From NCBI RefSeq assembly GCF_030116705.1, contig NZ_JAOTIK010000001.1, positions 6,972,501 through 7,036,500 on the forward strand: DNA of 64,000 bases. The letters run 5' to 3'. Source of the stretch: Streptomyces sp. ML-6 (lineage in GTDB: Bacteria > Actinomycetota > Actinomycetes > Streptomycetales > Streptomycetaceae). The notes below the pieces were generated by a model. It did no database searches. It was not told where the DNA came from and was given only the letters and a program-made list of their open reading frames with translations. Within the stretch, counting starts at the first letter, position 1; the number at the start of each line of letters is the position of its first letter. The translations under genes were made by a program, and so were the position numbers. Positions 46,608 to 56,610 of this stretch are shown one piece after another.

Positions 46608-47876
46608 TCAGACGCCGAAGGCGGCCGGGTAGCGGATCGTGCCCCGCGGTACCGGCACGGACCCGTCGAGGACCAGGGCCATCATCGCCTCGTCGGGCAC
46701 GTCGAAGCCCGGCCGGATCCCGTACCGCGACGCCGGCACGAAGCCGAACGCCGGGTAGTACTCGGGGTGTCCGAGCACCAGGACGAGTGCCTCGCCGCGC
46801 AGCCTGGCCGCGTCCAGCACCGCCCGCACCGCGGCCCGGCCCGCCCCCTGCCGCTGACGGTCCGGGGCCGTCGCCACCGGGGCCAGCGCCAGGGCCGGGG
46901 CGTCACCGACCCGGCACCGGGTCAGCAGCGCGTACGCGACCACGTCCCCGTCCGGGCCGTCCGTCACGACGTGGCCGAGTTCCGGCAGCCAGGCCGCCGG
47001 ATCACCGCGCAGCGCGTCCACGAGCGCGGCCTCGTCCGGGGTGGGGAACGCCGCCGCGTTGACCGCGAACACGGCGGCCCGGTCCGCCGAGGTCTCCGGC
47101 CTGGCCGGCCACCGGGGATCGACGGGACGCAGCACGTGGCCGGCGTAGCCGTACTCCGTGCCGTGGTCGCGCCGCACCGCCAGCTCCTCACGGGTGGCCG
47201 CGAGCGCCCACTCCATGCCTGGGGCCGACGGGTCCGCGGTCTCGACGCGCGCGGCGAGCGGGACGTAGTACTCGTCCCAGTCGCCGTCGGGCTGCACCAG
47301 CGTCCCCAGGACGTGGTAGCCGGCCGCCACCGCCGCCGCGGTGTTGGCCGCCAGGGGACGCAGCGGGGCCTGTCGGTCCCAGAAGGCGCGCGCCCCGGCC
47401 GTCGGGGCGTCGGTCGTCCAGACGCAGTCGGTGACGACGAGGGAGCCGCCCGGGGCGAGCAGCCGCTTCCAGTCCCGCAGCGCGGTGTCGAAGCCGATGT
47501 GGTACGCGGACCCCTCCGCCCAGACGAGGTCGAACGACCCGTCCGGGAAGTCGGGACCGGTCAGCTCGGCCATGTCGGCCCGCACGGTGCGGACCCGGTC
47601 GCCGAGCCCCCGGGTGTCGGCCGCCGCGCGCAGCTCGTCGAGGAACGGCTGGTGGAGGTCGACGGCGGTCACCTCGGCGTCGGCCTCCGCGGCGAGCAGC
47701 AGCGCGGCACGGCCGGGACCGCAGCCCAGGTCGAGCACGCGCGGGCGGCGCGGCAGCGGGCCGGCGAACTCCAGCAGGCGCCGGGTGGTGGCGTCGGAGC
47801 CGGGGCCCTGCCGGGGCAGGCCGTGGTGCAGGGAGAAGAACGCCTCGATACGGACGGCGTGATCGTTGTCGGTCAA
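46608..47876 (-). CDS. Fused SAM methyltransferase and GNAT acetyltransferase
   Basis: A 422-residue two-domain protein. Residues about 1-245 are a class I methyltransferase: LDLGCGPGRAALLLAAEADA (SAM-binding motif I), VTAVDLHQPFLDEL and FDLVWAEGSAYHIGFDTAL. Residues about 275-422 are a GNAT N-acetyltransferase with LALAPVATAPDRQRQGAGRA (acetyl-CoA loop) and GEALVLVLGHPEYYPAFGF. The TTG start at 47876 has AAGGG 8 bases upstream and is the first usable codon. A short upstream ORF may act as leader. The fusion suggests successive N-methylation and N-acetylation of one amine substrate or an unknown paired role. The substrate is unknown. Confidence 0.85.
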   Translation of the reverse strand: MTDNDHAVRIEAFFSLHHGLPRQGPGSDATTRRLLEFAGPLPRRPRVLDLGCGPGRAALLLAAEADAEVTAVDLHQPFLDELRAAADTRGLGDRVRTVRADMAELTGPDFPDGSFDLVWAEGSAYHIGFDTALRDWKRLLAPGGSLVVTDCVWTTDAPTAGARAFWDRQAPLRPLAANTAAAVAAGYHVLGTLVQPDGDWDEYYVPLAARVETADPSAPGMEWALAATREELAVRRDHGTEYGYAGHVLRPVDPRWPARPETSADRAAVFAVNAAAFPTPDEAALVDALRGDPAAWLPELGHVVTDGPDGDVVAYALLTRCRVGDAPALALAPVATAPDRQRQGAGRAAVRAVLDAARLRGEALVLVLGHPEYYPAFGFVPASRYGIRPGFDVPDEAMMALVLDGSVPVPRGTIRYPAAFGV

Positions 47877-47938
47877 CGTGGGAACCCTTGTGTGTGAGGG
47901 CTCCGGCCAACGGTGTCGACCCGGTGCGAGTCGGGGCG

Positions 47939-48007
47939 CTAGCCGAGAACCCGGGAGTTGAGGAAGAACCGGATGCTGCGCCGGGAAGGCGCCGTCGCGA
48001 CGGTCAT
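47939..48007 (-). CDS. Possible leader peptide before the methyltransferase-GNAT gene
   Basis: An ATG-started 22-residue ORF (MTVATAPSRRSIRFFLNSRV plus LG) with GAGGAGC 8-13 bases upstream, ending 62 bases before the TTG start of the fusion gene. A short peptide followed by the gene's own start is the layout of an attenuator. No run of a regulatory amino acid is obvious, and the ORF is short enough to be chance. Confidence 0.35.
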   Translation of the reverse strand: MTVATAPSRRSIRFFLNSRVLG

Positions 48008-48019
48008 CAACCTCAGCTC

Positions 48020-48078
48020 CTCTCTTCGAGAGGCCCTCCACAGGGACTCTCTTCGCGGGCTCTCTTCGTGGGCTCTCG
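48020..48078. repeat. CTCTCTTCG repeats and small hairpin
   Basis: GGGACTCTCTTCGC, GGGCTCTCTTCGT and GGGCTCTCG stand head to tail (48043-48078). Just before them is the small hairpin CTCTC-TTC-GAGAG (48020-48032). They lie upstream of the candidate leader ORF on the minus strand, where they read as purine-rich GAAGAGAG units. They may be protein-binding sites or RNA structure. Confidence 0.5.
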
Positions 48079-48140
48079 TCACCGAGTGCGGGAGGCTCGA
48101 ACGCCTCTGCGAGCACTTTACACCGGCCCCGGGCGGGGGC

Positions 48141-49225: not shown

Positions 49226-49542
49226 GGCGGTGGGAAGAGTTCCGACGGGGCGCTGCCGAGGACCGGGTGCCCCGCCCGGGAGCCCCTCCCCGAGGTCGCG
49301 CCGCGCTGCCGGCGGCCCGGGGCGACGAGGCGTTGCGACGAGGCGTTTTTGTCAGGCGGGGCGGGGATCGACGATGATGATCGCGGGCGTGCCGCATGAT
49401 GCCGGTCAGCCCCGAACGGAGCACAAACGGTCGGTGAACTCGCGCTTCCGTTCATCCGATAGCCTCTGCCGACGTGCCGCCGGTCCACATCAGGACCGCA
49501 CTGTCGCGCGCCGACCCCGTCAGCACCAAGGAGTGAGTTCGT
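49226..49542. other. Upstream region of the CDP-alcohol/glycan operon
   Basis: 317 bases without a supported gene. It contains the ribosome-binding site AAGGAG (49528-49533) for the CTG-started gene that follows. An AC-rich section around 49420-49500 (GGTGAACTCGCGCTTCCGTT, CATCCGATAGCCTCTGCC) is less GC-rich and may hold the operon promoter, but I could not fix its boxes. Confidence 0.4.
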
Positions 49543-51369
49543 CTGTCGACCGCCATCCTCACCGGTGCACCGGTACCCGGGTCGTCGCTCGCGGACGATC
49601 TGCGGTCCCTGGGCTTCGACGTCCGGGTCGCCGCCGATGCGGCCGAGGCCGCACGGCTGATCTCGGCCGTCCCCGCCGACCACCGCGTCGCACTGGTCGA
49701 TCCCGGTTTCGTGGGCCACGTCCACGCCCTCCGGCTCGGACTGACCGACCCGCGCTTCCCCGCCGCCGCCGTGCCCGGCGCGCTCACCGCCCAGCCCGAG
49801 GCGCGCCCCGCGCTCGTCCGGGCCCTGGACACCGAAACCGCCGCCGTCGGCGCGGGCGTCCCCGCGGGCGCGCCCGGCGCCCCGGTCACCGACCCCACCG
49901 TGCCGGGCCGCCTCGCCGCCGCCATGGACGCCGGGGGCACCGAGGTGCGGCGCCCCGAGCTGGGCTCGCTGGTCGCCGCCGTACCGAGGGACGACGCCAC
50001 GCGCGCCGAGGCGGAGCGCGCCCTCGTCTCGGTCGACGACGAGGCGGTGCGGCTGCGCAGCGCGGTGAAGGCGCACGACGGCTTCTTCACCACCTTCTTC
50101 ATCAGCCCGTACTCCCGCTACATCGCCCGCTGGTGCGCCCGCCGCGGCCTCACGCCGAACCAGGTCACCACCGCCTCCCTGCTGACCGCGCTGATCGCGG
50201 CCGGCAGCGCGGCGACCGGCACCCGGGGCGGCTACGTCGCCGCCGGGGTGCTGCTGCTCCTGTCCTTCGTCCTGGACTGCACCGACGGGCAGCTCGCCCG
50301 CTACTCGCTGCAGTACTCGACGATGGGCGCCTGGCTCGACGCCACCTTCGACCGGGCCAAGGAGTACGCCTACTACGCGGGTCTCGCCCTCGGTGCCGCC
50401 CGGGGCGGCGACGACGTATGGGCGCTCGCCCTGGGCGCGATGGTGCTCCAGGCCTGCCGGCACGTGATCGACTTCTCGTTCAACGAGGCCAACCACGACG
50501 CGGTGGCCAATTCGAGCCCCACGGCGGCGCTGTCCACCAAGCTCGACAGCGTCGGCTGGACGGTCTGGGTGCGCCGGATGATCGTGCTGCCGATCGGCGA
50601 GCGCTGGGCGATGATCGCGGTCCTCACCGCGGTGACCACCCCCCGGATCGTCTTCTACGCCCTGCTCGTCGGCTGCTCCTTCGCCGCCTGCTACACCACC
50701 GCGGGCCGGCTGCTGCGCTCGCTGACCCGCAGGGCGAAGCGCACCGACCGCGCCGCCCGGGCCCTCGCGGACCTCGCCGACTCCGGACCGCTCGCCGATA
50801 CCGTCGCCGCGATCGGGCCCCGGCTCGGCGGCAGCTGGAGCGCCCCCGTCACGGCGCTGCTCGCCGGGGCGCTCATGATCGCCTCCGCGCTCACCCAGCC
50901 CTTCGGCAGCTGGCACACCATCCTGGCCGCGGTGGTCTACGCGATGCTCTCCGGCATGGCCGTCTCCCGCCCGCTCAAGGGCGCCCTCGACTGGCTCGTG
51001 CCCCCGGCGTTCAGGGCGGCGGAGTACTGCACCGTCCTGGTCCTCGCCGCCCGCAGCGACGTCCCGGGGGCGCTTCCCGCGGCCTTCGGGCTGGTCTCGG
51101 CCGTCGCCTACCATCACTACGACACGGTGTACCGCATCCGCGGCGGCACCGGTGCGCCGCCCCGGTGGCTGGTCCGCACCATCGGCGGGCACGAGGGCCG
51201 CACCCTGGTGGTGACCGTGTTCGCCGCCCTGTTCACCCGGCACTCGACCTTCACCACGGCACTCACCGCGCTCGCCGTGGCCGTGGCCCTGGTGGTGCTC
51301 GTGGAGTCCATCCGCTTCTGGGTGTCCTCAGGCGCACCCGCCGTTCACGACGAAGGAGAACCCGCATGA
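49543..51369 (+). CDS. CDP-alcohol phosphatidyltransferase-family protein with long N-terminal domain
   Basis: A 608-residue membrane enzyme. An N-terminal soluble region (about 1-195, beginning LSTAILTGAPVPGSSLADDL) precedes helix-rich membrane parts. The CDP-alcohol phosphotransferase signature is complete: LDCTDGQLARYSLQYSTMGA, then WLDATFD, so all four Asp are present at about residues 245, 248, 266 and 270. A further 250-residue membrane segment follows. CTG at 49543 is proposed as start because AAGGAG lies 9 bases upstream and an in-frame stop is just before; the first GTG is 168 bases later, inside the N-terminal domain. It transfers a phosphoalcohol from a CDP-activated donor, here to an unknown acceptor. 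Confidence 0.82.
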   Translation: MSTAILTGAPVPGSSLADDLRSLGFDVRVAADAAEAARLISAVPADHRVALVDPGFVGHVHALRLGLTDPRFPAAAVPGALTAQPEARPALVRALDTETAAVGAGVPAGAPGAPVTDPTVPGRLAAAMDAGGTEVRRPELGSLVAAVPRDDATRAEAERALVSVDDEAVRLRSAVKAHDGFFTTFFISPYSRYIARWCARRGLTPNQVTTASLLTALIAAGSAATGTRGGYVAAGVLLLLSFVLDCTDGQLARYSLQYSTMGAWLDATFDRAKEYAYYAGLALGAARGGDDVWALALGAMVLQACRHVIDFSFNEANHDAVANSSPTAALSTKLDSVGWTVWVRRMIVLPIGERWAMIAVLTAVTTPRIVFYALLVGCSFAACYTTAGRLLRSLTRRAKRTDRAARALADLADSGPLADTVAAIGPRLGGSWSAPVTALLAGALMIASALTQPFGSWHTILAAVVYAMLSGMAVSRPLKGALDWLVPPAFRAAEYCTVLVLAARSDVPGALPAAFGLVSAVAYHHYDTVYRIRGGTGAPPRWLVRTIGGHEGRTLVVTVFAALFTRHSTFTTALTALAVAVALVVLVESIRFWVSSGAPAVHDEGEPA

Positions 51370-52103
51370 TCGGCCTCGTACTGGCAGCCGGTGCAGGACG
51401 GCGTCTGCGCCCCTACACCGACACGCTCCCGAAGGCCCTCGTGCCCGTGGACGGCGAGAAGACGGTCCTGGACCTGACGCTGGCCAACTTCGCGGAGATC
51501 GGCCTCACCGAGGTCGCCGTCGTCGTCGGCTACCGCAAGGAGGCGGTGTACGCCCGCAAGGCCGAGTTCGAGGCGAAGTACGGCGTGACCCTCACCCTGA
51601 TCGACAACGACAAGGCCGAGGAGTGGAACAACGCCTACTCCCTGTGGTGCGCCCGTGAGGTCCTGGGACGCGGCGTCATCCTGGCCAACGGCGACACCGT
51701 CCACCCCGCCTCCGTCGAGAAGACCCTGCTCGCCGCCCGCGGCGAGGGCCGGCGGATCATCCTCGCCCTCGACACGCTGAAGCAGCTGGCGGACGAGGAG
51801 ATGAAGGTCGTCACCGAGGACGGCAAGGGGGTGCGGCACATCACCAAGCTGATGGACCCGGCCACCGCGACCGGCGAGTACATCGGCGTCACCCTGATCG
51901 AGCCCGAGGCCGCCGCGGAGCTGGCCGACGCCCTGCGGACGACCTTCGAGCGCGACCCCGACCTCTACTACGAGGACGGCTACCAGGAGCTCGTGAACCG
52001 CGGCTTCACCATCGACGTGGCTCCCATCGGCGAGGTGGCGTGGGTGGAGATCGACAACCACGACGACCTCGCGAAGGGCCGTGAGATCGCGTGCCAGTAC
52101 TGA
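51366..52103 (+). CDS. Nucleotidyltransferase, LicC/phosphocholine cytidylyltransferase-like
   Basis: A 245-residue sugar-nucleotidyltransferase-fold enzyme. The start IGLVLAAGAGRRLRPYTDTL plus PKALVPVDG is the NTP-binding signature. TLIDNDKAEEWNNAYSLWCA, GVILANGDTVHP and a late WVEIDNHDDLAKGREI (metal-binding Asp) match the LicC/phosphocholine cytidylyltransferase branch. It likely makes the CDP-activated alcohol used by the CDP-alcohol phosphatidyltransferases on either side. Start and stop codons overlap the first of these (ATGA), and the next gene begins 13 bases before its stop. CTP as donor is inferred from neighbours. Confidence 0.87.
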   Translation: MIGLVLAAGAGRRLRPYTDTLPKALVPVDGEKTVLDLTLANFAEIGLTEVAVVVGYRKEAVYARKAEFEAKYGVTLTLIDNDKAEEWNNAYSLWCAREVLGRGVILANGDTVHPASVEKTLLAARGEGRRIILALDTLKQLADEEMKVVTEDGKGVRHITKLMDPATATGEYIGVTLIEPEAAAELADALRTTFERDPDLYYEDGYQELVNRGFTIDVAPIGEVAWVEIDNHDDLAKGREIACQY

Positions 52104-53152
52104 CCCGGCTCATCCCGTCCCCGGTCGTCGTCGACATCCGTCGCGGCGCCCTGGACGACCTGGCCGGTCTCCTCGCGGACCAGCGGATCTCCGCCTCCGG
52201 CAAGCTCGCCGTGGCGATCAGCGACGGGTCGGGGCGCGCCCTGCGCGAGCGGCTGGCCCCCGCGCTGCCCGGCGCCCACTGGTACCCGGTCACCGACGGC
52301 ACCCTCGACTCGGCGGTCAAGCTGGCCGACGACATCAAGGGCAACCGGTACGACGCGGTGGTCGGCCTCGGCGGCGGCAAGATCGTCGACGTGGCCAAGT
52401 ACGCCGCGGCGCGGGTCGGCCTGCCCATGGTCGCCGTGGCGACGAACCTCGCCCACGACGGCCTGTGCTCGCCGGTCGCGACCCTGGACAACGACAACGG
52501 CCGGGGCTCCTACGGGGTCCCCACCCCGATCGCCGTCGTCATCGACCTCGACACGGTCCGCCAGGCACCCGCCCGCTTCGTGCGCTCCGGCATCGGCGAC
52601 GCGGTCTCCAACATCTCCTGCGTGGCCGACTGGGAGCTGGCCCACGAGATCACCGGCGAGGAGATCGACGGCCTGGCCGCCGCCATGGCCCGGCAGGCCG
52701 GCGAGGCCGTGCTGCGCCACCCCGGCGGGATCGGCGACGACGCCTTCCTGAAGGTGCTCGCCGAGGGCCTGGTGCTGACCGGCATATCGATGTCCGTCGC
52801 CGGGGACTCCCGGCCGGCCTCGGGCGCCTGCCACGAGATCAACCACGCCTTCGACCTGCTCCACCCCCGGCGCGCGGCCAGCCACGGCGAGCAGGTCGGC
52901 CTCGGCGCCGGCTTCGCGATGTGGCTGCGGGGCGCCCACGAGGAGTCGCTCCTCATGGCGAGGACCCTGCGCCGGCACGGGCTGCCGGTCCTGCCCGAGG
53001 AGATCGGGTTCACCACCGAGGAGTTCGTCCGGGTCGTCGAGTACGCCCCGCAGACCCGCCCCGGGCGCTTCACGATCCTGGAACACCTCAACCTGTCCAC
53101 CGACCAGATCAGGGACGCGTACGCCGACTATGCAAAAGCCATCCATAGCTGA
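52091..53152 (+). CDS. sn-glycerol-1-phosphate dehydrogenase family protein
   Basis: A 353-residue iron/zinc-dependent dehydrogenase of the G1P dehydrogenase (EgsA/AraM) branch. The NAD-binding region has AVVGLGGGKIVDVAKYAA, then VAVATNLAHDGLCSPVATL and VVIDLDTVRQAP. The metal site is in CHEINHAFDLLHPRRAASHG (two His) with an earlier Asp (GIGDAVSNISC). In archaea and in Bacillus AraM these enzymes reduce dihydroxyacetone phosphate to sn-glycerol-1-phosphate, the enantiomer opposite to bacterial phospholipids. GTG starts within the preceding gene and it overlaps the next by 23 bases. It probably makes the polyol phosphate that its neighbours activate and transfer. A different polyol substrate is possible. 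Confidence 0.85.
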   Translation: MPVLTRLIPSPVVVDIRRGALDDLAGLLADQRISASGKLAVAISDGSGRALRERLAPALPGAHWYPVTDGTLDSAVKLADDIKGNRYDAVVGLGGGKIVDVAKYAAARVGLPMVAVATNLAHDGLCSPVATLDNDNGRGSYGVPTPIAVVIDLDTVRQAPARFVRSGIGDAVSNISCVADWELAHEITGEEIDGLAAAMARQAGEAVLRHPGGIGDDAFLKVLAEGLVLTGISMSVAGDSRPASGACHEINHAFDLLHPRRAASHGEQVGLGAGFAMWLRGAHEESLLMARTLRRHGLPVLPEEIGFTTEEFVRVVEYAPQTRPGRFTILEHLNLSTDQIRDAYADYAKAIHS

Positions 53153-53909
53153 ACTCCGTCCGGTCGTGCACCCGCCGGGCGTGAAGGACCGGCGCAGCGG
53201 CGAGCACTGGGCCGGTCGGCTCTACATGCGCGAGATCTCGCTGCGCATCGACCGGCACCTGGTGAACACCCGGGTCACCCCCAACCAGCTGACCTACCTG
53301 ATGACCGTCGCGGGTGTGCTCGCCGCCCCCGCCCTGCTCGTCCCGGGCATCCCCGGCGCGCTGCTCGGGGTCCTCATGGTCCAGCTCTACCTGCTGCTCG
53401 ACTGCGTCGACGGCGAGATCGCCCGCTGGAAGAAGCAGTTCTCGCTGGGCGGGGTCTACCTGGACCGGGTCGGCGCGTACCTCTGCGACGCGGCCGTGCT
53501 GGTCGGCTTCGGCCTGCGCGCCGCCGACCTGTGGGGCTCCGGGCGGATCGACTGGCTGTGGGCCTTCCTGGGCACGCTCGCCGCCCTCGGCGCGATCCTG
53601 ATCAAGGCCGAGACCGACCTCGTCGGGGTCGCCCGCCACCAGGGCGGCCTGCCGCCCGTCAAGGAGTCCGCGTCCGAGCCGCGCTCGTCCGGCATGGCGC
53701 TCGCCCGCCGGGCCGCCGGCGCGCTCAAGTTCCACCGGCTGATCCTCGGGGTCGAGGCGTCGCTGGTGATCCTGGCGGCGGCCGTCCTCGACGCGGTCAG
53801 GGACGACCTGTTCTTCAGCCGTCTGATGGTCGCGGTGCTGGCCGGCATCGCGCTGCTGCAGACCCTCCTGCACCTCGTGTCGATCCTGGCGTCGAGCAGG
53901 CTGAAGTGA
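53130..53909 (+). CDS. Second CDP-alcohol phosphatidyltransferase-like protein, motif lacks final Asp
   Basis: A 259-residue membrane protein. RLYMREISLRIDRHLVNTRV and LTYLMTVAGVLAAPALLV lead to the signature LLDCVDGEIARWKKQFSLGG, then VYLDRVGAYLCD. The first three Asp of D-x2-DG-x2-AR-x8-G-x3-D-x3-D are there, but the fourth position, often the catalytic base, is Ala (DRVGA). Another Asp four residues later might substitute. It may be a structural partner of the first enzyme or have altered chemistry. ATG overlaps the dehydrogenase end; its stop overlaps the glycosyltransferase start. Confidence 0.83.
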   Translation: MQKPSIAELRPVVHPPGVKDRRSGEHWAGRLYMREISLRIDRHLVNTRVTPNQLTYLMTVAGVLAAPALLVPGIPGALLGVLMVQLYLLLDCVDGEIARWKKQFSLGGVYLDRVGAYLCDAAVLVGFGLRAADLWGSGRIDWLWAFLGTLAALGAILIKAETDLVGVARHQGGLPPVKESASEPRSSGMALARRAAGALKFHRLILGVEASLVILAAAVLDAVRDDLFFSRLMVAVLAGIALLQTLLHLVSILASSRLK

Positions 53910-54790
53910 GCACCCCCATGAAGATCGGCGCGGTCGTCATCACGATGGGCAACCGCCCGGACGAGCTCCGCGCCCTCCTCGACTCGGTCGTCCGCCAGGA
54001 GGGCGACCGGATCGAGGTGGTGGTCGTCGGCAACGGCGCCCCCGTCCCGGAGGTCCCCGCCGGGGTGCGCACCGTCGAGCTGCCGGAGAACCTCGGCATC
54101 CCCGGCGGCCGCAACGTCGGGATCGAGGCCTTCGGCCCGTCCGGCAGCGATGTGGACGTCCTGCTCTTCCTCGACGACGACGGACTGCTGCCGCTCACCG
54201 ACACCGCCGAGCTGTGCCGCCGGGCGTTCGAGTCGGACCCCCGGCTGGGCATCGTCAGCTTCCGCATCGCCGACCCGGACACCGGGGTCACCCAGCGCCG
54301 CCACGTGCCGCGGCTGCGCGCCTCCGACCCGCTGCGCTCCTCCCGCGTGACGACCTTCCTGGGCGGCGCCAACGCCGTGCGCACCCGGGTCATCGCCGAG
54401 GTCGGACCGCTGCCCGGCCGGTTCTTCTACGCGCACGAGGAGACCGATCTCGCCTGGCGGGCCCTGGACGCCGGCTGGATGATCGACTACCGCGCGGACA
54501 TGGTCCTCAACCACCCCACGACCGCCCCGTCGCGGCACGCGGTGTACCACCGCATGGTGGCCCGCAACCGGGTCTGGCTGGCCCGTCGCAATCTGCCCGC
54601 CCTCCTGATCCCCGTCTACCTCGGGGTGTGGCTGCTGCTGACCCTGCTGCGCAGGCCCTCCGTCCCGGCGCTGAAGGCCTGGTTCGGCGGCTTCCGGGAG
54701 GGCTGGACCACCCCGTGCGGCACCCGCCGCCCCATGAAGTGGCGCACGGTGTGGCGGCTGACCCGGCTCGGCCGACCTCCCGTGATCTGA
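53906..54790 (+). CDS. Family 2 glycosyltransferase
   Basis: A 294-residue GT2 enzyme. KIGAVVITMGNRPDELRALL, ENLGIPGGRNVGIEAF and VLLFLDDDGLLPLTD (DxD-type metal site) make up the donor-binding domain; FFYAHEETDLAWRALDAGW is the acceptor-side ED motif. A hydrophobic segment near the end (LLIPVYLGVWLLLTLL) probably anchors it to the membrane. The GTG start overlaps the previous stop by four bases. It would add a sugar to, or extend, the product of the CDP-alcohol steps before export. Donor and acceptor cannot be deduced. Confidence 0.9.
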   Translation: MSTPMKIGAVVITMGNRPDELRALLDSVVRQEGDRIEVVVVGNGAPVPEVPAGVRTVELPENLGIPGGRNVGIEAFGPSGSDVDVLLFLDDDGLLPLTDTAELCRRAFESDPRLGIVSFRIADPDTGVTQRRHVPRLRASDPLRSSRVTTFLGGANAVRTRVIAEVGPLPGRFFYAHEETDLAWRALDAGWMIDYRADMVLNHPTTAPSRHAVYHRMVARNRVWLARRNLPALLIPVYLGVWLLLTLLRRPSVPALKAWFGGFREGWTTPCGTRRPMKWRTVWRLTRLGRPPVI

Positions 54791-54902
54791 GAGGCTCTCC
54801 TTCTGAGAGCATGAGTCGTACGTTCGTTTTCCCTACGGGACCTGTCCGCTCCGAGCCGCGCCCGCGACTGGCTGCGCATCTTGAATACGAGAGTTTCATC
54901 TG

Positions 54903-55832
54903 GTGAGTGACACAACCCCTGATGGTGCGGTCGCACTGAGCACCCCGCCATCCGCCGACGACGGTCTGAGTCCGGCAGAGCTGGCCGCCAAGCACGGCCT
55001 CACGGTGAGCGGCGCCCGGCCGGGGCTCTTCGAGTACATCCGGCAGCTCTGGGGCCGGCGCCACTTCATCATGGCGTTCTCCAGGGCGAAGCTGACCGCC
55101 CAGTACAGTCAGGCGAAGCTGGGCCAGCTGTGGCAGGTGGCGACCCCGCTGCTCAACGCCCTGGTCTACTACTTGATCTTCGGACTGATCCTGGGCACCC
55201 GGAAGGGAATGACCCAGGAGGTCTTCATCCCGTTCCTGGTGACCGGGGTCTTCGTCTTCACCTTCACCCAGAGCTCGGTGATGGCGGGCGTGCGGGCGAT
55301 CTCCGGCAACCTGGGCCTGGTCCGGGCGCTGCACTTCCCGCGTGCCTCGCTGCCCGTCTCGTTCTCGCTGCAGCAGCTCCAGCAACTGCTGTTCTCGATG
55401 ATCGTGCTCGGGGTCGTGGCCGTGGTCTTCGGCAGCTACCCGAGCCTGTCCTGGCTGCTGATCATCCCGGCGCTGGCCATGCAGTTCGTCTTCAACACCG
55501 GCCTGGCGCTGATCATGGCCCGGCTCGGCAGCAAGACCCCCGACCTCGCCCAGCTGATGCCGTTCGTCATGCGGACCTGGATGTACGCCTCGGGCGTCAT
55601 GTTCTCCATCCCGGTGATGCTCAAGGACAAGCCGGCCTGGATCGCCGACGTCCTCCAGTACAACCCGGCGGCCGTCTACATGGACCTGATCCGCTTCGCG
55701 CTGATCGACGGGTACGGCTCGGAGAACCTGCCGGCGCACGTCTGGATGGTGGCGCTGGCCTGGGCGCTCGTCGTCGGCGTGGTGGGCTTCGTGTACTTCT
55801 GGAAGGCAGAGGAACGGTACGGCCGTGGCTGA
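54903..55832 (+). CDS. ABC-2 type polysaccharide/teichoic acid export permease (Wzm/TagG-like)
   Basis: A 309-residue membrane protein with a soluble N-terminus of about 60 residues and six membrane segments. RHFIMAFSRAKLTAQYSQAK plus LGQLWQVATPLLNALVYYLI is the amphipathic lead and first segment seen in Wzm/TagG permeases. Later segments include FIPFLVTGVFVFTFTQSSVM and LIIPALAMQFVFNTGLALIM, with WMYASGVMFSI near the end. It would export a lipid-linked glycan or polyol phosphate. The GTG start follows a 112-base gap after the glycosyltransferase, and it overlaps the ATPase gene by 8 bases. Confidence 0.9.
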   Translation: MSDTTPDGAVALSTPPSADDGLSPAELAAKHGLTVSGARPGLFEYIRQLWGRRHFIMAFSRAKLTAQYSQAKLGQLWQVATPLLNALVYYLIFGLILGTRKGMTQEVFIPFLVTGVFVFTFTQSSVMAGVRAISGNLGLVRALHFPRASLPVSFSLQQLQQLLFSMIVLGVVAVVFGSYPSLSWLLIIPALAMQFVFNTGLALIMARLGSKTPDLAQLMPFVMRTWMYASGVMFSIPVMLKDKPAWIADVLQYNPAAVYMDLIRFALIDGYGSENLPAHVWMVALAWALVVGVVGFVYFWKAEERYGRG

Positions 55833-56610
55833 CGACAAGACCCAGGGGCGCGTCCCCACCGTCATCGCCGACGATGTGCACATCGTCTACCGGGTGAACG
55901 GGGCGGGCGGCGGCAGGGGCAGCGCCACCGCGGCGCTGAGCCGGATACTGCGCCGCGGCAAGGGCGAGGCGCGCGGGGTGCGCAAGGTGCACGCCGTGCG
56001 CGGCGTCACCTTCACCGCCTACCGGGGCGAGGCGATCGGCCTCATCGGGACCAACGGCTCCGGCAAGTCCACGCTGCTGCGGGCCATCGCCGGTCTGCTG
56101 CCGACCGAGAAGGGCAAGGTCTACACCGACGGCCAGCCCTCCCTGCTCGGGGTGAACGCGGCGCTGATGAGCGACCTGACCGGGGAGCGCAACGTGGTGC
56201 TCGGCGGCCTCGCGATGGGCATGTCCCGCGAGGAGATCCGGGAGCGCTACCAGGGGATCGTCGACTTCTCCGGCATCAACGAGAAGGGCGACTTCATCAC
56301 CCTGCCGATGCGCACCTACTCCTCCGGCATGTCCGCCCGGCTGCGCTTCTCCATCGCCGCCGCGAAGAACCACGACGTCCTCATGATCGACGAGGCGCTG
56401 GCGACCGGTGACCGCAAGTTCCAGATCCGCTCCGAGAAGCGGATCAGGGAGCTCCGCAAGGAGGCGGGCACCGTCTTCCTGGTCAGCCACAGCAACAAGT
56501 CCATCAGGGACACCTGCGACCGGGTCCTGTGGCTGGAAAAGGGCGAGCTGCTGATGGACGGCCCCACGGACGAGGTGCTCAAGGCGTACGAGCGCGAGAC
56601 CGGGAAGTAG
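55825..56610 (+). CDS. ABC export ATPase (Wzt/TagH-like)
   Basis: A 261-residue ATPase for the adjacent permease. Walker A is GTNGSGKSTLLRAIAG, the signature YSSGMSARLRFSIAAA, Walker B DVLMIDEALATGD and switch FLVSHSNKSIRDTC. The DEAL-x-TGD sequence and late signature are typical of polysaccharide and teichoic-acid exporters. The N-terminus (DVHIVYRVNGAGGGRGSATA) has the usual extension. It lacks the C-terminal carbohydrate-binding domain found in some Wzt proteins, so substrate choice lies elsewhere. It is the last gene of the operon. Confidence 0.92.
   Translation: MADDKTQGRVPTVIADDVHIVYRVNGAGGGRGSATAALSRILRRGKGEARGVRKVHAVRGVTFTAYRGEAIGLIGTNGSGKSTLLRAIAGLLPTEKGKVYTDGQPSLLGVNAALMSDLTGERNVVLGGLAMGMSREEIRERYQGIVDFSGINEKGDFITLPMRTYSSGMSARLRFSIAAAKNHDVLMIDEALATGDRKFQIRSEKRIRELRKEAGTVFLVSHSNKSIRDTCDRVLWLEKGELLMDGPTDEVLKAYERETGK

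Follow-up and report, generated by a model that had tools for sequence, protein, structure and literature searches.

A conserved Streptomyces operon that may serve a teichoic-acid-type pathway running on sn-glycerol-1-phosphate

sn-Glycerol-1-phosphate (G1P) is the mirror-image form of glycerol phosphate that is known above all from archaea, and the G1P dehydrogenases (G1PDHs) of bacteria are usually discussed together with the 'lipid divide'. What, then, might such an enzyme do in Streptomyces? The window analyzed here, a stretch of 64,000 nucleotides from the genome of Streptomyces sp. ML-6, contains an operon of seven genes in which a G1PDH homolog (the dehydrogenase) is accompanied by a nucleotidyltransferase (NTP), two CDP-alcohol phosphotransferases (CDPA and CDPB), a family 2 glycosyltransferase (GT2) and the permease and ATPase of a TagGH-type ABC exporter. 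The operon is a real module that is conserved widely and strongly linked to teichoic acid genes. We propose, with a probability of roughly 55%, that it is an actinobacterial teichoic-acid-type module running on G1P.

The firmest result is the pairing of the dehydrogenase with the NTP. In a class sample of 197 genomes, 46 had both enzymes (dehydrogenase at 300 bits or more), one had the NTP alone and one the dehydrogenase alone, giving 46/48 paired, and in both unpaired genomes the match lay close to a contig end, at most about 120 bases away. We also compared 101 loci (20 from the class sample, 80 named loci and the window), the genes of which were called by a codon-usage script and then clustered. 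The NTP was the next gene upstream of the dehydrogenase in 96 of the 99 loci where the script had called a dehydrogenase, the exceptions being L033, L041 and L104. Because of this constant order, and because the dehydrogenase was present in all 61 Streptomyces genomes searched and reached at least 300 bits in 47 of the 197 genomes of the class sample, the operon is not a chance arrangement. By analogy with TarI and TarJ, a dehydrogenase and a nucleotidyltransferase travelling as a pair suggest a CDP-polyol as their product. The NTP family profile was nearest to LicC (71 bits), the inositol-phosphate enzyme of T. maritima (68.5 bits) and PntC (63.5 bits), and the protein carries the polyol-phosphate cytidylyltransferase signature LAAGAGRRLRPYTDTLPK; it was below every NCBIfam cut-off shown. 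It shares a nucleotidyltransferase family with LicC, the inositol-phosphate cytidylyltransferase (IPCT) and PntC, but differs from them in being coupled to a G1PDH-type enzyme. Two Gram-negative cytidylyltransferases took either enantiomer of glycerol phosphate in vitro, so that CDP-1-glycerol is enzymatically possible (PMC8262930).

By its sequence, the dehydrogenase falls on the G1PDH side of its superfamily, apart from the glycerol dehydrogenases. A profile built from 15 family members gave 220 bits against 3ce9, 214 against the G1PDH 4rgq, 190 against 5fb3 and 125 against 9h4x, compared to 77 bits against the best entry named glycerol dehydrogenase, 3ce9 aside. The original prediction had named phylogeny as a check, and in a maximum-likelihood tree of 29 rows the enzyme fell with the G1PDHs: eight GldA-type rows were split at 100/100 from the 21 others, which hold the dehydrogenase family, 4rgq, 5fb3, 9h4x and 3ce9 in an inner order without resolution. 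The DG, SRPxSGxxH and RPxRxT blocks are common to the family and archaeal G1PDH and are missing from GldA. The enzyme of the window has the blocks GIGD, SRPASGACHE and HGE; we take the GxGD, SRPxSGxxH and HG blocks to hold the Asp/His/His ligands of the metal site, and one relative, L041, has GVGE where the others have GxGD. These blocks and the sequence clan are shared with archaeal EgsA and Bacillus AraM. In contrast to both, the operon enzyme is partnered with a nucleotidyltransferase in a teichoic acid setting, and a search of the ML-6 genome for PcrB/GGGPS at E 0.001 gave no match, so that the standard archaeal ether-lipid route is not supported. The same genome has one close copy of the dehydrogenase and one weak match of 38.6 bits elsewhere. 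Published G1PDH trees contain actinobacterial sequences, one of them from Streptomyces (PMC5059525, PMC6431249). A G1P arm of the operon appears likely.

The neighborhoods in relatives point to teichoic acids rather than to an unspecified glycan. IspD or IspD+SDR genes (TarI/TarIJ-like) occurred in 79 of the 101 loci, LCP genes in 74, GDPD genes in 36 and a PF04464 cluster in 32; these cluster names rest on few scanned members, namely three LCP, three IspD-type, one GDPD and six PF04464 (all above cut-off, 26-40 bits). At least one of LCP, PF04464 and IspD was found in nine of the 20 sampled loci and in 73 of the 80 named loci. The named loci are the top 80 among 588 relatives; they all stand close to a single Microbispora sequence and are therefore not independent. 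In the Streptosporangiales, the module adjoins LCP ligases as well as genes resembling TarI/TarIJ and TagF. Different polymer genes stand in some loci, for example a bacterial sugar transferase in L128, GT4 enzymes in L034 and a TarS-linker GT2 in L041, and the permease and ATPase clusters were each present in 26 of the 101. The polyol-phosphate glycan or glycolipid originally predicted is thus sharpened by the survey, which ties the module to teichoic acid genes.

A 2025 study places TagF and TarIJ of S. griseus at the rplU site, using the genes for L21 and L27 as anchors (PMC13274773). The seven-gene operon stands apart from this wall teichoic acid locus in Streptomyces, but four genomes have second copies of the module there (2/61 in the Streptomyces search and 2/16 Streptomyces of the class sample). 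The second dehydrogenase lies between rne and rplU in L032, L033 and L165, and L170 starts inside the NTP. The copy in L033 has no NTP there, and a TarS-linker GT2, GalU, a GT2-PF04464 protein and a PF04464 protein follow after obgE. Counting by eye, we saw a TarIJ-like match at the rplU site in 21 of 42 loci, but not in any of the four with the second dehydrogenase; two of these four had been picked for that dehydrogenase, L165 reaches about 0.7 kb past obgE and several regions end at contig ends. We therefore dropped the statistical claim that the module replaces TarIJ at this site, which is suggestive only. The rne-rplU interval of L163 has an NTP homolog in three aligned pieces (80-83% identity) with no dehydrogenase beside it, and this may be a decaying second copy.

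Across genomes, PF04464 (TagF) was present in 45 of the 47 NTP carriers, compared to 45 of the 150 others (Fisher p 9e-17 for the 197 genomes, relatedness uncorrected). The cut-off for TagD was reached by 0/197 genomes, and a TagD match of at least 100 bits was found in 13/197, none of them carriers. The 90 genomes with PF04464 included 45 with the NTP and 10 with TagD at 100 bits or more, and none with both. Because no carrier has a TagD match of at least 100 bits, a clear alternative source of CDP-glycerol is not seen in the carriers. The ML-6 genome has three PF04464 matches, all outside the operon. Its sole TagD match, in a nucleotidyltransferase domain at G000:C1:526300-528300 (region L201), ties with heptose-phosphate adenylyltransferase (64.9 and 65.7 bits), and both scores are far under their cut-offs.

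Several points weigh against the proposed module. The co-occurrence statistics ignore the relatedness of the genomes, and the lack of strong TagD in carriers reaches a p of 0.04 only. Six carriers, among them ML-6, show weak matches of the TagD type (59-66 bits), and 35 of the 90 PF04464 genomes have neither the NTP nor a strong TagD. The operon is without a polymerase, and no TagF-type gene is among its seven. A TarIJ-type protein is encoded at the rplU locus of ML-6 (169.8 bits, compared to an NCBIfam ribitol-5-phosphate cytidylyltransferase cut-off of 166), and the PF04464 enzymes of ML-6 may therefore use CDP-ribitol. Finally, CDPB failed the motif test: it has Ala in place of the last motif Asp, a residue that 90 of 90 homologs lack.

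If the operon is a teichoic-acid-type module running on G1P, the dehydrogenase would reduce dihydroxyacetone phosphate to G1P and the NTP would join G1P and CTP to give CDP-sn-1-glycerol. CDPA, with CDPB, would then move G1P onto a lipid hydroxyl (diacylglycerol or a glycolipid) or onto a lipid-linked glycan, the GT2 would glycosylate the product, and the TagGH-type transporter would carry it out of the cell as a component of a glycerophosphate glycan of the lipoteichoic or wall teichoic type. The sequence of making, activating, transferring, glycosylating and exporting had been anticipated in the original prediction and agrees with the gene order, and the functions it gave to the genes are borne out at family level. 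The sequences show the families, the gene pairing, the teichoic acid neighborhoods, the PF04464 co-occurrence and the lack of a strong TagD. We infer the substrates, the enantiomer, the use of CTP, the acceptor, the product and the role of G1P, which might be backbone, primer or side group.

CDPA has the motif DxxDGxxARx8GxxxDxxxD, which is kept in 59 of 62 homologs. The CDPA model superposes on the choline-phosphotransferases CPT1/CEPT1, with AF2299 and IPCT-DIPPS tied with CPT1 in Z. The N-terminal domain is degenerate; fold comparison leads to cytidylyltransferases, as in 4mnd, which likewise joins a domain of this fold to a CDP-alcohol core, and by inspection there is no LAAGxGxR signature. 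Its kinship with the NTP found no support in profile-profile alignment (probability 0.8%). CPT1 has extra C-terminal helices where CDPA has DUF5941. That DUF5941 is a second CDP-alcohol domain was not supported in comparison with CDPB, and it had no sequence match in the PDB up to E 1. Unlike CPT1/CEPT1 and IPCT-DIPPS/AF2299, the CDPA family has a split or motif-less version: in 21 loci (L044, L111, L129 and 18 more), a CDPA-related protein without the catalytic motif (cluster c18) stands beside a separate DUF5941 gene.

The end product could instead be a lipid, with CDPA catalyzing a Kennedy-type transfer of G1P from CDP-glycerol onto diacylglycerol, the GT2 glycosylating the lipid and the ABC transporter flipping it. 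Transfer of G1P to diacylglycerol would directly give the normal stereochemistry of phosphatidylglycerol, CPT1/CEPT1 are enzymes that use diacylglycerol, and a lipid would need no polymerase in the operon. However, AF2299 and IPCT-DIPPS equal CPT1 in Z, and exporters of the TagGH/Wzm-Wzt type, together with the LCP, TarIJ-like and TagF-like neighbors in relatives, point to a polymer. We consider a lipid product unlikely, but it is the strongest of the alternatives.

Ranked below it is a module of the same kind with another building block, in which a drifted dehydrogenase would make another polyol phosphate or sn-glycerol-3-phosphate (G3P) and the NTP would activate it for a teichoic-acid-type glycan. 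The dehydrogenase of the window reached 226 bits on the NCBIfam archaeal G1PDH model, for which the cut-off is 413 (84 bits on the glycerol dehydrogenase model), and is therefore named a G1PDH-clan enzyme and not a proven member. Its nearest PDB relative, 3ce9, was deposited as a glycerol dehydrogenase and is of unproven function. In the tree, the actinobacterial rows have a long branch to themselves. The bit score and the deposition of 3ce9 also count against the proposed G1P module, as does the fact that two unclassified rows from Actinobacteria, likewise on long branches, stand on the G1PDH side of the tree. The DG, SRPxSGxxH and RPxRxT blocks, common with archaeal G1PDH and missing from GldA, speak against another building block, which we regard as improbable. 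That the enzymes make a soluble phosphodiester, like di-inositol phosphate from IPCT-DIPPS, is very improbable: the NTP, CDPA and CDPB do resemble IPCT and DIPPS, but the polymer-type exporter, the GT2 and the teichoic acid neighbors would be left without explanation.

It had been expected that G1P would set the product apart from ordinary teichoic acids. This was wrong: B. subtilis has a G1P polymer as its lipoteichoic acid and a G3P polymer as its wall teichoic acid (PMC7086022), and G1P therefore points towards lipoteichoic stereochemistry and not away from teichoic acids. The product of the operon, if our reading is right, would share its stereochemistry with the lipoteichoic acid that LtaS makes in Firmicutes; LtaS, however, uses phosphatidylglycerol outside the cell, whereas the operon is proposed to use a nucleotide donor inside. 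Actinobacteria are without clear LtaS orthologs, and in 2011 the way in which they make polyglycerophosphate lipoteichoic acid was still described as an open question (PMC3196553). The polyglycerophosphate lipoteichoic acid of S. hygroscopicus closely resembles its own wall teichoic acid, and a shared pathway was favored by the same authors. Together, a CDP-G1P supply, a transferase directed at lipids and an exporter of the TagGH type would fit the LtaS gap. We tentatively suggest, as a wider and doubtful extension, that Streptomyces and many Streptosporangiales use CDP-sn-1-glycerol to build mirror-image glycerophosphate polymers by a route that depends on a nucleotide and not on LtaS, and in which a choline-phosphotransferase-like enzyme primes a lipid anchor.

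If true, the proposal would explain actinobacterial lipoteichoic acid without LtaS and the likeness of the two chains in S. hygroscopicus, and bacterial G1P dehydrogenases would gain a cell-wall role and DUF5941 a function. The stereochemistry of wall polymers could then not be transferred from Firmicutes without a check. The operon provides named genes with which the actinobacterial route to polyglycerophosphate lipoteichoic acid can be tested. The region is included in a 2026 synteny study, with crtB, tagG, tagH, araM, a CDP-alcohol transferase, a GT2 and a sugar-phosphate nucleotidyltransferase; its authors mention teichoic acid biosynthesis as well as secondary metabolism, and found the nucleotidyltransferase cluster in duplicate in 76 of 929 genomes (PMC13118837). 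In the open-licence literature we found no product, pathway or G1P chemistry for the region, and excerpts of PMC5898192, PMC11481543, PMC7300013 and PMC13390465 contain nothing on the operon.

The close packing predicted for the seven genes was confirmed. They fill 49543-56610 on one strand (Table 1), and five of the six junctions overlap, by 4, 13, 23 and 4 nucleotides (nt) in gene order and, after a gap of 112 nt between the GT2 and the permease, by 8 nt between permease and ATPase. CDPA starts with an unusual CTG; in 16 aligned Streptomyces (window included; relatives L146-L160), CTG (8/16) or TTG (8/16) stands at the same place behind GGAGTGAG. A tRNA search at the locus found none.

Table 1. 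Positions in the window of the operon genes and of the element upstream
Feature	Position	Strand	Description
PHO-box-like pair of 11-nt units (GTTCACC type)	49418..49439	-	upstream of operon
CDPA (CDP-OH_P_transf + DUF5941)	49543..51369	+	cytidylyltransferase-fold N-terminal domain without usual signature; CDP-alcohol phosphotransferase core, motif complete
NTP (NTP_transferase)	51366..52103	+	LicC/IPCT/PntC-like nucleotidyltransferase; proposed CTP:glycerol-1-phosphate cytidylyltransferase
Dehydrogenase (Fe-ADH_2)	52091..53152	+	G1PDH clan; proposed to convert dihydroxyacetone phosphate to G1P
CDPB (CDP-OH_P_transf)	53130..53909	+	second CDP-alcohol phosphotransferase; Ala in place of last motif Asp
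GT2 glycosyltransferase	53906..54790	+	family match; start set by gene caller
ABC-2 permease, TagG/Wzm kind	54903..55832	+	galactan Wzm model 60 bits, KpsM model 43 bits, each below cut-off
ABC ATPase, TagH/Wzt kind	55825..56610	+	TagH model 173 bits, missing the cut-off of 320 yet top among NCBIfam matches

Control of the operon by phosphate may be inferred from its upstream region. GGTGAAC (GTTCACC on the other strand) was exact in 13 of the 16 aligned Streptomyces upstream regions. A PHO-like two-unit score of at least 12/14 was reached by 7/16 sequences and by 0/300 mononucleotide shuffles of that region in the window; the window itself scored 10, a value reached by 41/300 shuffles. A repeat search upstream of the operon gave one 13-nt pair only. 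The S. coelicolor gene SCO6753 has been predicted to be a target of PhoP; it has a PHO box, and its expression is changed when phoP is mutated (PMC4173021). Because SCO6750 is idi (PMC3897704) and the hopanoid cluster is SCO6759-71 (PMC2374992), SCO6753 lies within the stretch that matches zitB and the operon, without assignment to one gene. According to a review, which cites SCO2997, S. coelicolor has a teichoic acid cluster under phosphate regulation (PMC7866108). A strongly conserved block (ATCCGATAGCCTCTGCCGAC..GCCGCC, 49454-49481) that separates the PHO-like element from CDPA is perhaps the promoter.

The operon lies between idi and zitB upstream and hpnC/D/E, a polyprenyl synthetase and squalene-hopene cyclase downstream. 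This placement, noted originally, stands for the window, and its hopanoid side recurs among the 101 loci only in L031; a common product with the hopanoid operon is thus not supported. Between idi and zitB, one frame of 502 amino acids on the minus strand (46608-48116) combines methyltransferase and GNAT acetyltransferase domains.

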